53,884 nt of DNA, taken from NCBI GenBank assembly GCA_030697825.1, contig JAUYOW010000232.1:1-53884 (forward strand), read 5' to 3'. How positions within the stretch are numbered: position 1 is the first letter of the stretch; every line of letters begins with the position of its first letter. Shown here one piece after another: positions 15,369 to 21,215 of the stretch. Position numbers and translations under genes: made by a program. The DNA comes from Gemmatimonadales bacterium. GTDB taxonomy: Bacteria; Gemmatimonadota; Gemmatimonadetes; Gemmatimonadales; JACORV01. A model generated the notes under the pieces. That model worked only from the letters and a program-made list of their open reading frames with translations. It did not search any database and was not told the origin of the DNA.

Positions 15369-15458
15369 GCGGGGAGCGGGGAGCGGTACCATTGGATGCT
15401 CGCCACCGCGACGGAGCCCCACGTCCGGCACCGTCAGGTACCGCTCCCCGCTCCCCGC
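15369..15458. repeat. palindromic repeat, family A, copy 1
   Basis: Perfect 22-bp inverted arms (15369-15390 and 15437-15458; the inner ends are GGTACC) flank a 46-nt centre. The arms contain tandem GGGGAGC units. A second copy with the same arms and the same 46-nt centre length lies at 21123-21208. It occupies most of the E1 beta-E2 intercistronic gap, so in the mRNA it would form a long hairpin between the two cistrons. Confidence 0.9.
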
Positions 15459-15474: not shown

Positions 15475-16881
15475 ATGGCGCGGATTGACGTCATCATGCC
15501 GCAGATGGGCGAGTCCATCGCCGAAGGCACCTTGTCGAAGTGGCTCAAGAAGTTGGGCGACGAGGTGAAGCGCGACGAGCCTATCTTCGAGATCAGCACC
15601 GACAAGGTGGACGCGGAGATACCCGCGCCCTCGGCGGGCGTGCTGGCGGAGATCATGGTCAAGGAAGGCCAGACCGTTCCGGTGCAGACCATCGTCGCCC
15701 GGATCGAGACGGACAAGTCGGCCGTCGGTGCGGCGCCCGTGCCGAGCGCTCCGGCCCCGGCAGCCGCGGCTCCCGCGCCGGCGGCGCCGAAGGCCGCGGC
15801 TCCCGCTCCGGCCGCTGCTCCCGTTGCCGCTCCCGCGGTGACCAGGAGTGGCGACACGGCGCCGCCGTGGCGCGCGCCGGCGCCGGCGCCGTCCTTCGAG
15901 GGCCCGGAGACCGCGGAGGAACGTCTTCGCCGCAAGTCCACGCCCTTGGTGCGCAAGATCGCGGCCGAGCACCAGGTGGACATAGCCGCGATCCCGGGCA
16001 GCGGCTTCGCCGGCCGCGTGACCAAGAAGGACATCCTGGGCTACTTGGACGCGGGCACCTTGGAAGCGGGCACCGGCGCACCGGCGCACGGCCGCACCGA
16101 AGCGGGTGCGCCACCCCGTGCGGCTGGTGCGCCCGTGCCCTCGGTGCCCGCTGGGGCGTGGGAGGCGACGCCCTGGCCCGGCGACCGCGTCGAGCCGATG
16201 AGCCGCATCCGCCAACTCACCGCCGAGCACATGATCTTCTCGCGGCGCACTTCGGCGCACGTCACCTCGTTCTACGAGGTGGACATGCAGCGCATCGCGA
16301 AGCTGCGGGAGGCGCACAAGAAGGAGTTCGAGGGTCGCGGCGCGAAGCTCACCTACCTCGGCTTCATCGTGAAGACGGTGGCGGACCAGCTCCGCAAGCA
16401 CCACGTCCTCAACGCCGCGGTGCAGGGCAGCAACATCATCTATCGGCAACAGATCAACGTCGGCATCGCGGTGGCGCTCGACTGGGGCCTCATCGTGCCG
16501 GTGATCAGGAACGCGGACGAGCTGTCGCTCCTCGGCATCGCCAAGACCATGGCGGACCTCGCCGATCGTGCCCGGAACAAGAAGCTAAAGCCCGATGAGG
16601 TGCAGGGCGGTACCTTCACGATCACCAACCCCGGCGTGTTCGGCTCGTACATCGGCGCGCCGATCATCAACCAGCCGCAGGTCGCCATCCTCGGCGTGGG
16701 CGCGATCGAGAAGCGGCCCAAGGTCGTGACGACCGAGGACGGCACCGACCTCATCGTGCCCCGGATGACCACGATGCTGTCCATCTCCTACGACCACCGG
16801 ATCGTGGACGGCGCCGACGCCGACCGCTTCATGGCCGATCTCAAGGCCGGGCTTCAGGACTTCTCCGAGGGCGCGCTCTGA
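15475..16881 (+). CDS. 2-oxoacid dehydrogenase E2, dihydrolipoamide acyltransferase
   Basis: 468 residues. The lipoyl domain (residues 1-78) has the lipoylation lysine in STDKVDAE. An Ala/Pro-rich linker follows (about 83-130), then the E1/E3-binding domain (RKSTPLVRKIAAEHQVD, about 150-188), a second Gly/Ala/Pro linker (198-230), and the catalytic domain ending DHRIVDGADADRF with the active-site His. It transfers the acyl group from E1 to CoA and forms the complex core. No E3 gene is in the window. The second linker is encoded by an imperfect palindrome resembling repeat family B. Confidence 0.93.
   Translation: MARIDVIMPQMGESIAEGTLSKWLKKLGDEVKRDEPIFEISTDKVDAEIPAPSAGVLAEIMVKEGQTVPVQTIVARIETDKSAVGAAPVPSAPAPAAAAPAPAAPKAAAPAPAAAPVAAPAVTRSGDTAPPWRAPAPAPSFEGPETAEERLRRKSTPLVRKIAAEHQVDIAAIPGSGFAGRVTKKDILGYLDAGTLEAGTGAPAHGRTEAGAPPRAAGAPVPSVPAGAWEATPWPGDRVEPMSRIRQLTAEHMIFSRRTSAHVTSFYEVDMQRIAKLREAHKKEFEGRGAKLTYLGFIVKTVADQLRKHHVLNAAVQGSNIIYRQQINVGIAVALDWGLIVPVIRNADELSLLGIAKTMADLADRARNKKLKPDEVQGGTFTITNPGVFGSYIGAPIINQPQVAILGVGAIEKRPKVVTTEDGTDLIVPRMTTMLSISYDHRIVDGADADRFMADLKAGLQDFSEGAL
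16066..16151. repeat. palindromic repeat, family B, inside the E2 gene
   Basis: The left arm (16066-16097) and right arm (16118-16151) are imperfect inverted copies built of GGCAC/GGCGCAC units, with a 20-nt centre. They read in frame as GTGAPAHGRT and AAGAPVPSVPAG in the second E2 linker. The units resemble those at 28155-28250, 52388-52516 and 53747-53800. Confidence 0.6.
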
Positions 16882-16895
16882 GCCGGCATCTTTTC

Positions 16896-17171
16896 GTGCT
16901 GATCTTCGAGGCGTCCCCCGGCAGCGAGGAACGCGCCGACGACGTGATGCGCGCGGCGCGGGCGCGCGCCGAGCCGGCGGGGTGGCACTGCTGGGCGTAC
17001 CGGAACGAGATCGCACCGAACGAGATAACTTTGTTCCTGGAGGGACCGACGGCCGCGGGCGACGAAGCGCCCGTATTCGGCGACGAGATCGCAGAGCTCA
17101 GGGCGCTCGCGCGCCGCTTCGAGCCGGTCCGGTCCCTGGTCGAGCATCCGCTGGAGAGTGGAGCCGCATGA
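16896..17171 (+). CDS. small unknown protein, 91 aa
   Basis: Starts LIFEASPGSEERADDVM from GTG at 16896 and ends ESGAA. It is acidic, with no signal peptide or membrane segment. The layout (LFLEGP, then an alpha-helical end) recalls small alpha/beta-barrel proteins, but no family is recognised. It lies 14 nt after E2 and overlaps the next gene by 4 nt (ATGA), so it is probably translated in the same operon. Confidence 0.6.
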   Translation: MLIFEASPGSEERADDVMRAARARAEPAGWHCWAYRNEIAPNEITLFLEGPTAAGDEAPVFGDEIAELRALARRFEPVRSLVEHPLESGAA

Positions 17172-17440
17172 TCGAACGCACTTTGATCGTGGAAGGACAG
17201 GCGTGGGCCGTGTCCATCGCGGGCCGGTTCACCGTGTACGAGCGGGACGAGTTCCCGGTGCTCTTCGAGCGGCGAGACGCGCACGGCAAGCGGGAGCGGA
17301 GGGTGAGCCGCTTCTCGCCGCTCGGAAGCAAGAGCCGCGCCCCGGCTCTGGCCGAGCTGACGGATGCGGAGTTGACGACGCTGTACCGGCAGAGCCAGCC
17401 GGACTGGACCTCGCCGGAGCTCGGCTATGCGCGCTCCTGA
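17168..17440 (+). CDS. small unknown protein, 90 aa
   Basis: Begins MIERTLIVEGQAWAVSIAGR and ends LGYARS. It has a beta-rich N-terminal half and a short helix (LAELTDAELTTLYRQSQ). It starts within the ATGA overlap with the preceding gene and overlaps the peroxiredoxin start by 14 nt. That placement ties it to the selenoprotein candidate. No family recognised. Confidence 0.65.
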   Translation: MIERTLIVEGQAWAVSIAGRFTVYERDEFPVLFERRDAHGKRERRVSRFSPLGSKSRAPALAELTDAELTTLYRQSQPDWTSPELGYARS

Positions 17441-17882
17441 CTCGGACCTTCCGCTGGCGGTAGGGAGCAGCGCGCCCGACTTCGAGCTTGACGCCACTCA
17501 AGGCCGCCGCGTGAAGCTGAGCACGCTCCTCCAGAAGGGTCACGTTGCGCTCTACTTCTATCCCGGAAACAACACTCCGGGCTGAAACAAGCAGCTCTCC
17601 TCCGTGCGCGAGGAGCAGAGCAACTATGTGGCCAAGGGCGTGCAGACGTTCGGGGTGAACCCGGCATCGGTGGAAAGTCACGAGAAGTACGCGGAGAAAT
17701 TCAAGTTCAACTTCCCGCTGGTCTCCGATCCAGACCGAAAGGCGGCCGCGGCGTACCACGCCCTGAAGCCCGACGGGAAAGGGATCGCCCGCACGGTGTA
17801 TCTGATCGGCCGGAGCGGTACGGTGTTGTTCGCGCAGCGTGGCGCACCGGGCGCGGACGTGATCCTCTCGGCGCTGGACTAG
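17427..17882 (+). CDS. peroxiredoxin (BCP/PrxQ type) with in-frame TGA, probable selenoprotein
   Basis: The open frame is 151 codons if the TGA at 17583-17585 (codon 53) is read as selenocysteine. Both sides of the TGA are clearly peroxiredoxin: upstream GSSAPDFELDATQGRRVKLS and YFYPGNNTPG, downstream VNPASVESHEKYAEKF, FPLVSDPDRKAAAAYH and RTVYLIGRSGTVL. The TGA replaces exactly the peroxidatic cysteine of the canonical NTPGC motif. The usual resolving Cys five residues later is Leu. The enzyme would reduce hydroperoxides. ATG 17427 has GGAGC 6 nt upstream. A hairpin starting 9 nt after the TGA fits a bacterial SECIS. TrxB lies downstream on the same strand and may supply reductant. A nonsense mutation is the less likely alternative. 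Confidence 0.85.
17594..17621 (+). promoter_or_regulatory. candidate bacterial SECIS hairpin
   Basis: Immediately after the in-frame TGA, GCTCTCCTC (17594-17602) pairs with GAGG plus AGAGC (17610-17613 and 17617-17621), leaving a 3-nt bulge (AGC). The 7-nt apical loop CGTGCGC contains GU/G residues. The loop begins about 18 nt after the TGA, within the spacing expected for SelB-binding elements in bacteria. No covariation evidence is available here. Confidence 0.6.
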
Positions 17883-17890
17883 GGAACGCG

Positions 17891-18622
17891 ATGGCCGGCG
17901 ACTTTGACTTCTCGGGCCGAGTGGCGGTCGTGACCGGGGTCGGGCGCGTAGGCCAGATCGGCCATGCGGTCGCCCAGGGCTTCGGCCGCGCGGGCGCCAA
18001 GCTTGTCGTCGCCGACCGGAACGCGGTGGAGGTGGCGGCGCGCGCCAGGGAGTTCATGGCCCAGGGCATCGAGGCGCGCCCGGCCGCAGGTGACCTGACG
18101 GAGCCGGACGTCGCGCAGTGGATAGTGGAGGAAGCGCTCCAGGCGTTCGGGCGGCTCGACATTCTGGTCAACGTGGCGGGCGGTCTCACCGGCTACGGGC
18201 CGATGCTGGAGATGGACGTCAGCGTCCTCGACCGCGAGATCGCCGTGAACGTGAAGACTACGTACCTCGTCTCGCGCGCCGCGGCCAAGGTCATGGTGGG
18301 GCAGCGGAGGGGCGCGATCGTCAATTTCGCCTCCATCTCTGCGATCCACGCCAAGCCCTCGATGGCCGCCTATTCCGCCGCCAAAGCGGGCGTCGCCGCG
18401 CTCACCCGGAGCCTCGCCCTGGAGCTGCGCGACCATGGCGTCCGCGTCAATGCCGTCGCGCCGGGCGTGGTCCGCACCGACGACAACGTTCGGACCACCG
18501 CCGAGCAACCGCCGCGTTGGGTGGAGATCGACGAGATCGTGAACGCGGTGCTGTTCCTCGCCTCGGATCTCTCGGCCGGCATCACCGGCCATGTGCTGCC
18601 CGTTTCGCACGGGGAACTCTAG
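17891..18622 (+). CDS. short-chain dehydrogenase/reductase
   Basis: 243 residues, classical SDR. The NAD(P) motif is in VAVVTGVGRVGQIGHAVA, followed by LDILVNVAGG, the serine motif IVNFASISA and the catalytic YSAAK. NAVAPGVVRTD is the usual post-catalytic segment. The substrate cannot be predicted. It starts 8 nt after the peroxiredoxin and ends 4 nt before a second SDR gene. Confidence 0.88.
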   Translation: MAGDFDFSGRVAVVTGVGRVGQIGHAVAQGFGRAGAKLVVADRNAVEVAARAREFMAQGIEARPAAGDLTEPDVAQWIVEEALQAFGRLDILVNVAGGLTGYGPMLEMDVSVLDREIAVNVKTTYLVSRAAAKVMVGQRRGAIVNFASISAIHAKPSMAAYSAAKAGVAALTRSLALELRDHGVRVNAVAPGVVRTDDNVRTTAEQPPRWVEIDEIVNAVLFLASDLSAGITGHVLPVSHGEL

Positions 18623-18626
18623 AGCC

Positions 18627-19355
18627 GTGGAGCTGCGCGGCCGTAATGCGCTGGTAACCGGGGCCGGCATCCGGCTCGGGCGCGCCATCGCCTTCGGGTT
18701 GATGCGGCGCGGGGTCAACGTCGCGGTCCACTACTTCCATTCAGCGCACGGCGCCCGGTCCACGGCCGTCGAGGGTGAGGCGGGGGGCGTGAAGATCGCG
18801 CTGCTCGAAGCCGATGTGTCGGACGCCGTCCAGGCGGAGGCGCTCGCGGGCCGCGCCTCCGAAGCGCTCGGAGGTCTGGACATCGTGGTGAACAGCGCCG
18901 CGATCATGGAGCGCCGCCCGCTCGCCGAGGTCACGCCGGCGGATTGGGACCGGACCATGGACTTGAACCTGCGCGGCGCCTTCTTCGTGGCGAAGGGCGC
19001 GGCCTCGGTCATGGCGGAGAAGGGCGGCGCCATCGTCAACATGGCCGACATCGCGGCCTTCGAGCGCTGGAAACAGTACCCGGCGCACTGCATCAGCAAG
19101 GCCGGCATCGTCGCGATGACGGAGCTGCTGGCGAAGACCCTCGCGCCGAAGATCCGCGTGAACGCCGTAGCGCCGGGCGCCGTGCTCCTGCCGGAAGACT
19201 GGAGCGCCGGCGCGCGCGCGCGGGTGGTCGGATCCACCCCGCTGGGCCGGCTGGGCAGTCCGGGCGACGTGGTGGGCGCGGTGCTGTTCCTGATCGAGCA
19301 GGAGTACATCACCGGGGAGACGCTCGTCGTGGACGGCGGGCGGTTGCTGAGATGA
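18627..19355 (+). CDS. SDR protein, pteridine-reductase-like, catalytic Tyr replaced by His
   Basis: 242 residues from GTG at 18627. The nucleotide motif [12 protein letters not shown] resembles the FolM/PTR1 type (TGxxxRxGR). IVNMAD carries an Asp where classical SDRs have Ser, again as in PTR1. In HCISK the catalytic Tyr of YxxxK is His, 13 residues after that Asp, which is exactly the Tyr spacing in PTR1. [12 protein letters not shown] and GETLVVDGG complete the fold. Loss of Tyr would normally abolish reductase activity, so the protein may bind rather than reduce, or use another donor. It is followed by trxB after 61 nt. Confidence 0.82.
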
Positions 19356-19416: not shown

Positions 19417-20385
19417 ATGAAGAACTACGACCTGATCATCGTCGGCGCCGGACCGGCCGGCCTTTGCGCGGCGCTCTACGCGGGCCGCTCCATGCTGAAG
19501 AGCGTGGTGATCGAGCGCGGCGCCCCGGGGGGGGAGCTCCTGAACACCGAGCTCATCGAGGACTATCCGGGCTTCGAGTCCATCAAGGGTTTCGAGCTGT
19601 CGGAGAAGATGGCGGCGCATGCGCTCAAGTTCGGCACCGAGATGGTGACGGACACGGTGGCGAGCGTCGAGAAGCGCGACGACGGCACGTTCCTGGTCAC
19701 GACAGAAAACGGTGAAAATTTCGAGGCGCCGGCCGTGATCCTCACCGCGGGCGGCACCCCCACCAAACTCGGCGTTCCGGGCGAGGCGGAATACGCGGGC
19801 AAGGGCGTGTCGTACTGCGCCGTGTGCGACGGGCACTTCTTTCGCGGCGAGGTGCTCGCGGTCGTCGGCGGCGGCGACGCGGCGTGCGAGGAGGCCGAGT
19901 TCCTGACCCGGTACGCGTCCAAGGTCTTCATCATCCATCGCCGGAACGCTTTTCGCGCCTCGCCCATCATCCAGAAGCGCGTCTTCGAGAATCCGAAGAT
20001 CGAGGTGGTCTGGGACACGGTCGTCGAGCACATCGAGGGCGACGGGAAGGCCGTCAAGCACCTCGCGGTCAGGAACGCCGTCAGCGGCGCGACGTCGCAG
20101 CTGCCGGTCGGCGGCGTGTTCGTCTTCATCGGCTTCCAGCCCAACACAGGCGTCGTGAAGGGGCACTTCAAGCATGATGCCGCGGGTTACATCGTCACGG
20201 ACGAGGTGATGATGAGCTCGATCCCGGGCCTCTTCGCGGCGGGCGACCTGCGGGCGCAGCTCACTCGGCAAATCACGACGGCGGTCGGCGACGCCACGAC
20301 CGCGGTCATCGCCGCGTCCAAGTACCTCGCCGCGCTCAAGGACCGCGAGGCCGCCAAGACGGCTCAGCCGGTTGGCAGCGCCTAG
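19417..20385 (+). CDS. trxB: thioredoxin-disulfide reductase
   Basis: 322 residues. FAD motif [20 protein letters not shown], redox-active CAVC in [16 protein letters not shown] motif [15 protein letters not shown], and C-terminal FAD segment [19 protein letters not shown]. The enzyme passes electrons from NADPH to thioredoxin in the cytoplasm and could support the peroxiredoxin upstream. It overlaps the next gene by 14 nt. Confidence 0.96.
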
Positions 20386-21121
20386 GGTCGTCACGCTCAC
20401 CAACGGCGCCTTCGCCGAGAACTGCTACCTGGTCGCCGACCCGGAGCGCGGGGAGGCGGTCATCATCGATCCCGGCGAGGAAGCGGGCCTCTTCCTCGCC
20501 CGCGCGCGCCACGAGCGCTGGACGCTGCGCGCCGTCTGGCTGACGCACGCGCACCTCGACCACGTGGCAGGGGTGGCGGAGGTCAAGGCCGCGACGGGTG
20601 TCCCGGTGCACCTTCACCCTGCCGACCGGCGCCTCTACGATTCGCTCCCGGTACAGGCACAGATGTTCGGCCTCTCCGCTGACGCGCCCCCTCCCCCCGA
20701 CGCGGACCTGGCCGAGGGCCAGACCGTGAGCGTGGGCGGCCTGGCGTTCGCGGTGCTGCACACTCCCGGCCACACCCCGGGCGGAGTGACCTTCGTCGGC
20801 TACGGATCGGCTTTCGCGGGAGACGCGCTATTCGCCGGATCGATCGGCCGCACCGATCTGCCCGGCGGCGACACCGCCACGCTGCTCGCCAGCATCCGGG
20901 AAAAGCTCTTCGCCCTGCCGGATGAGACCGTCGTGTATTCCGGCCATGGCCCCGAAACGACGATCGGGGAGGAGAAGCGGTCCAACCCATTCGTGAAGCT
21001 GGTGCCCGGGATCAACGCGTGCCTCAAGTGCGGCGCCGAGGTCCGCCCGAAGCCGTGGGGGTGCAAGAACCCGTGCGCCAACTGTGGGTTCGTGTATCCG
21101 CTGGGGGACTGTTCCGATTAA
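20372..21121 (+). CDS. metallo-beta-lactamase-fold hydrolase with C-terminal zinc ribbon
   Basis: 249 residues from TTG at 20372, inside the trxB end. The glyoxalase II-like metal motif [33 protein letters not shown] and [14 protein letters not shown] are all present, so the hydrolase domain is complete at about residue 208. The extension that follows, [15 protein letters not shown] and then CANCGFVYP, holds a CxxC and a CxxxCxxC set and probably binds an extra zinc. The substrate is probably a thioester such as an S-acylglutathione-like compound, but this is not certain. Confidence 0.88.
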
Positions 21122-21122
21122 G

Positions 21123-21208
21123 GGGGAGCGGGGAGCGGTACCTCCCGTTGCTCGCCGCGGCGCCAGCAAGCCGCGACGGGCATCCGAAGGTACCGCTCCC
21201 CGCTCCCC
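21123..21208. repeat. palindromic repeat, family A, copy 2
   Basis: Perfect 20-bp arms (21123-21142 and 21189-21208), again ending inward in GGTACC, flank a 46-nt centre. The right arm continues with one more GCTCCCC to 21215, directly against the GTG start of the cytochrome gene. Relative to copy 1 the centre matches best in reverse orientation (both share a GGATGC-type segment next to GGTACC). The repeat fills the whole gap between two genes. Confidence 0.9.
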
Positions 21209-21215
21209 GCTCCCC

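Follow-up and report, generated by a model that had tools for sequence, protein, structure and literature searches.

A probable selenocysteine-containing peroxiredoxin of the BCP/PrxQ type in Gemmatimonadales and its cysteine orthologues at the same locus

The window analysed in this work, the whole stretch of 53,884 nucleotides from a Gemmatimonadales metagenome-assembled genome (MAG, 98% complete), very probably carries a BCP/PrxQ-type peroxiredoxin (Prx) gene whose UGA codon 53 is decoded as selenocysteine (Sec) through SelA, SelD, tRNA-Sec and SelB, directed by a downstream SECIS element (Table 1). A probable selenocysteine peroxiredoxin had been proposed in an earlier note made from the sequence alone, and this reading was supported by the conservation of codon 53, the sel genes and the synonymous constraint downstream of the TGA. 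By its sequence, the gene adds a member to the known Sec-Prx (TxxU) family, and its evolutionary record is unusually clear.

Translation with TGA read as U gave a single in-frame TGA, at codon 53 in the context YPGNNTPG-U-NKQLSSVREE, and the window protein showed the motif P46-xxx-T50-xx-U53; the BCP-type frame is broken only by a TGA at the peroxidatic position, as had been claimed. In the same translation, Pfam AhpC-TSA (PF00578) matched residues 12-133 (E 1.5e-31) and homology therefore spans the TGA in one frame, again in agreement with the first reading. The window protein was 49-69% identical to its orthologues over the full length. P46, T50, U53 and R122 were invariant in 16 aligned sequences, except for a Cys at position 53 in one of them, and R122 aligned with an Arg of the Prx in PDB 5enu; the Pxxx(T/S)xxC motif and a conserved Arg have been described in peroxiredoxins (PMC5302317). 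Without recoding, the open reading frame (ORF) list contained only a truncated 92-aa ORF starting at GTG (17604-17882), as expected from the earlier statement that standard gene callers split or truncate this gene. The ATG of the Prx lies inside the end of the upstream ORF, and Sec is presumably inserted at codon 53 of the window protein. A codon-position GC scan of the window gave no other convincing gene with a readthrough TGA, but as the known Prx case was missed too, this outcome is uninformative.

Table 1. Coordinates of the Prx gene, its proposed decoding signals and the neighbouring genes in the window.
Feature	Position	Strand	Remarks
Short upstream ORF	17168..17440	+	90 aa, without Pfam match; overlaps Prx start by 14 nt
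Putative selenocysteine peroxiredoxin CDS (BCP/PrxQ type)	17427..17882	+	151 aa, TAG stop; Pfam AhpC-TSA match
Proposed Sec codon UGA (codon 53, peroxidatic position)	17583..17585	+	TGA in 58/58 TGA-bearing orthologues
Codons 54-63, synonymously frozen stretch, proposed SECIS sequence	17586..17615	+	From codon entropy
Predicted SECIS hairpin	17594..17621	+	5 bp + 4 bp, one mismatch; loop GUGCGCGA at 17604-17611
SDR-family oxidoreductase, conserved neighbour	17891..18622	+	
Second SDR-family oxidoreductase, conserved neighbour	18591..19355	+	
Thioredoxin-reductase-like flavoprotein, candidate electron source	19417..20385	+	Pyr_redox_2, CAVC motif
MBL-fold hydrolase, last gene of the conserved block examined	20372..21121	+	

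When the protein was searched against 201 genomes (that of this MAG and 200 relatives of the same order), the close orthologues carried a TGA in 58 cases and lacked it in one (G033). Relatives with TGA at unrelated positions, named in the earlier note as a finding that would refute the reading, were not seen among these orthologues: extraction and alignment placed the TGA exactly at codon 53 in all 58, with TGC in G033. Neither chance nor sequencing error can therefore account for it, in agreement with the remark that a random nonsense mutation at this codon would be a coincidence. Among the best 80 loci from named genomes, codon 53 was TGA in 61 and TGC or TGT in 19, five of the latter at the syntenic locus, and the close TGA orthologues of the order proved to be from Gemmatimonadota MAGs; the alternation of Cys and TGA suggested as a check was found, since both occur in syntenic orthologues. 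Dozens of related bacteria, uncultured and from soil and groundwater, retain the recoded codon. Two more distant Prx paralogues (36-38% identity) also had one TGA (G171:C8:4162-4575 and G097:C29:27813-28115), and a separate Sec Prx with Ser at +5 (TPGUTSQLS) was seen in a Chloroflexota MAG (L188:3001-3417) that carries selB and tRNA-Sec. When the relatives of this Chloroflexi genome were searched for an independent test of the Sec/+5 relation, no more TGA copies turned up.

Most of the Sec-decoding machinery was found in the own genome: selA (514 bits) and selD (387 bits) were over the cut-off, and tRNA-Sec (selC; RF01852) scored 74.1 bits vs. a gathering score of 47, with UCA in the anticodon loop CUUCAAA. 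The proposed check for sel genes was positive for these three, but selB was not found in the own assembly, and neither were the clpB region and recO (gene names read from translations). Four genomes from the family of this MAG (G002, G003, G004 and G005) have selB no more than a few kb away from clpB; in the sister species, G002, it comes immediately after a recO-like gene. Because clpB and recO are missing too, the absence of selB points to an unassembled block rather than to a lost gene, and selB is probably present in this strain and hidden by an assembly gap. In G006, a Sec-Prx genome in which selB was not found, recO runs off the contig end. Forty-nine of the 58 Sec-Prx genomes had selB (E<=1e-60), 52 had tRNA-Sec (E<=2e-12), and all 58 had one or both at these thresholds. 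The own-genome selD (L082:207-1294, G000:C186) is itself a selenoprotein gene, with TGA at catalytic codon 23 (SHGAGUACK).

The codons following the TGA were the most constrained part of the gene, with a mean synonymous codon entropy of 0.29 bits for codons 54-63 (vs. 1.18 upstream and 1.10 downstream). The downstream consensus (AAC CGC CAA CTC TCC GCC GTG CGC GAY GAG) had few exceptions, and Gln56 was encoded by CAA in 50/59 cases, against 118 CAG and 18 CAA for Gln elsewhere in the gene. This freezing of codons 54-63 is as expected from an overlapping SECIS, and the bacterial SECIS proposed in the earlier note downstream of the UGA is backed by this strong synonymous constraint.

Pairing in the predicted hairpin started 8 nt after the UGA, at 17594; the 8-nt loop (GUGCGCGA) lay 18 nt after the UGA. 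Fold energy for 17583-17625 was -14.9 kcal/mol, a value reached by 1.2% of the synonymous-codon shuffles of the window. The stem-loop noticed earlier was present, but with a loop of 8 nt and a start 8 nt after the UGA instead of a 7-nt loop starting 9 nt downstream. Loop size, a G in loop positions 1-2, spacing (16-37 nt) and energy were within the limits for bSECIS elements (PMC13188914). The consensus sequence folded, at about -6.5 kcal/mol, into a small stem built of CUC/GAG and CGC/GCG and capped by a CGU(GC) loop. On average, the hairpins of 58 Sec sequences showed no excess stability vs. synonymous-codon shuffles (mean z -0.03), and covariation was minimal among the near-invariant homologue sequences; the suggested comparison of folds with homologues showed high stability for the window fold among its own shuffles, but no general excess across the homologues. 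Folding stability failed as a proof of this SECIS, and the argument therefore rests on sequence constraint. Four codons of the window gene (55, 56, 59 and 62) differed from the otherwise near-invariant sequence that follows the UGA; of these, codons 59 (TCC) and 62 (GAG) create the pairs U17601-A17614 and C17603-G17612, giving a longer hairpin that leaves GU equally far from the UGA as in the consensus. GU was found at that place in the loop in 60/60 Gemmatimonadota Sec sequences checked. The exact SECIS fold of the window gene would, according to the folding model, be that of Table 1.

The gene order E2 - Prx - SDR(s) - TrxB - MBL hydrolase was shared by nearly all Gemmatimonadota loci, Cys copies included, and Cys and Sec copies are therefore positional orthologues. 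Two SDR genes separate the Prx from the TrxB-like gene. The earlier suggestion that a downstream trxB may supply electrons was correct as to the presence of the gene, and a role as reductant is indicated by synteny only, which makes the TrxB-like flavoprotein a plausible part of the Sec-Prx reducing system. Two kinds of repeats were also observed in the window: an intergenic element of 88 nt, bounded by terminal inverted repeats of ~20 nt (GGGGAGCGGGGAGCGGTACC ... GGTACCGCTCCCCGCTCCCC), which is present in two copies (15371-15458 and 21123-21210, 77% identical) and looks similar to a REP-like repeat or to a small mobile element of the non-coding kind; and an 8-nt unit (AGGGGCAC) tandemly repeated at the contig end (53746-53793).

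Five Gemmatimonadota Cys orthologues were located at the syntenic locus (L145, L158, L171, L172 and L160). In a tree of 141 columns with some weak forks, built with position 53 masked, they fell within the Sec clade at two separate points, one for L145/L158/L171/L172 and one for L160. The first four genomes had neither selB over the cut-off nor tRNA-Sec (4/4), and the genome of L160 still has tRNA-Sec. In the frozen stretch after codon 53, synonymous differences per codon were 0.04 in Sec copies and 0.43 in Cys copies, and three or more synonymous changes fell within codons 54-61 in 5/5 Cys copies vs. 0/60 Sec copies; this loss of codon constraint supports the role of the constraint in decoding. 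Judged from these sequences, Sec-to-Cys reversions are seen for Prx in Gemmatimonadota; a table published in 2006 gives five Cys-to-Sec and no Sec-to-Cys conversions for Prx (PMC1794560).

Other explanations for the TGA were considered. The TGA differs from TGC by a single base and the MAG yielded no selB, as might be expected of a nonsense mutation or an assembly mistake in a Cys peroxiredoxin (a pseudogene or a sequencing error). As a general explanation this was refuted, since codon 53 is TGA in 61/80 relatives and in 58/58 TGA-bearing orthologues, the latter coming from a large number of independent assemblies; the frame is moreover intact on both sides and followed by the most constrained codons of the gene, making an inactivated or misread gene hardly credible. 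Reading of the TGA as another amino acid (e.g. Trp, through suppression or a code change) or plain readthrough would agree with a frame that is open under any code with TGA as sense, but TGA stops other genes in the window, such as E2 (16879-16881) and the upstream ORF (17438-17440). Apart from TGA, codon 53 encodes Cys, which has taken the place of TGA in the four genomes without selB and tRNA-Sec; we consider such readings extremely improbable, and a code change was rejected from the TGA/Cys pattern of codon 53 among orthologues.

It is also conceivable, and in our judgement very unlikely, that selB was recently lost in this species, the Prx Sec being present by descent, no longer decoded, and its SECIS drifting. 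The absence of selB from a nearly complete MAG and the non-consensus codons 59 and 62 of the window gene are in favour of such a loss, but the genes flanking selB (clpB and recO) are missing too, in line with an unassembled block; tRNA-Sec, selA and the Sec-type selD are intact; and the substitutions at 17601 and 17612 pair with existing bases, producing a stronger hairpin with the GU distance kept. Decoding of codon 53 as Sec is the reading followed below.

The residue at +5 from the Sec was Ser (60) or Gly (1), whereas Cys homologues mostly carry a resolving Cys at this position (TPGC-xxQLC, C....C, outside Gemmatimonadota). The resolving Cys in CxxxxC spacing that marks the atypical 2-Cys PrxQ was thus absent from the Sec forms, and the window protein, with Ser at +5, contains no cysteine. 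The window protein would be expected to have peroxidase activity: P46, T50, Sec53 and R122 would form a conserved active site for peroxide attack, in which the selenolate would attack H2O2 or organic hydroperoxides and become a selenenic acid. As +5 is Ser and there is no other cysteine, the direct reductant of this selenenic acid would most likely be external, a thiol or a thioredoxin-like protein, in a 1-Sec mechanism; the syntenic TrxB-like reductase may in turn supply that reductant with electrons. Alternatively, the Ser at +5 may be kept because its TCC codon lies within the SECIS. After Sec-to-Cys reversion, L171 and L172 had C....C (CNRQLC), and their sisters L145 and L158 had C....S. 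In a joint reading, for and against which we are evenly divided, the peroxidatic Sec of the order would be coupled to the loss of the resolving Cys, U....S passing to C....S after the loss of selB/tRNA-Sec and in some cases to C....C (L171/L172), with the Sec form either being a 1-Sec PrxQ or having its Ser held by the TCC of the SECIS. If true, this single syntenic locus would be a natural experiment on why Sec is retained.

Bacterial Sec-Prx (Prx, TxxU, COG1225) have already been catalogued (PMC1088965, PMC1794560, PMC13188914). The gene described here shares with them the Trx-fold peroxidase, the proposed peroxidatic Sec in a TxxU motif, the in-frame UGA with a predicted downstream SECIS and the existence of widespread homologous Cys forms; it differs in that Sec prevails among the close orthologues of an order and that Sec-to-Cys reversions are seen. 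In the literature searched, which covered few subscription papers, no Sec peroxiredoxin was reported for Gemmatimonadota. The Cys form of BCP/peroxiredoxin Q has the same Pxxx-T-xx-(C/U) motif and Arg, and the best structural relatives by sequence were PDB 3drn (E 7.7e-18) and 5enu (E 1.4e-17); here, Sec replaces the peroxidatic Cys and Ser the Cys at +5. The NCBIfam equivalog for thioredoxin-dependent thiol peroxidase was rejected (75 bits vs. a cut-off of 140), as was the PrxU equivalog (NF040737; 35.6 bits vs. a cut-off of 270), which represents a characterised bacterial Sec peroxiredoxin, the selenoprotein of Eubacterium acidaminophilum. AhpE (Rv2238c, a 1-Cys Prx, PDB 1xvw) is a peroxiredoxin without a resolving cysteine; it has a similar fold and length (E 6.5e-9), but carries Cys instead of Sec and, judged by score, is only distantly related.

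With standard annotation, this gene would be overlooked or cut short throughout a group that is widespread in soil and groundwater, and what may be a main peroxide-defence enzyme would stay hidden. The locus offers matched Sec and Cys orthologues in one gene neighbourhood, together with SECIS decay and changes of the resolving Cys, and would allow a direct test of the benefit of selenium to a peroxiredoxin and of the constraint that a SECIS places on its host protein.
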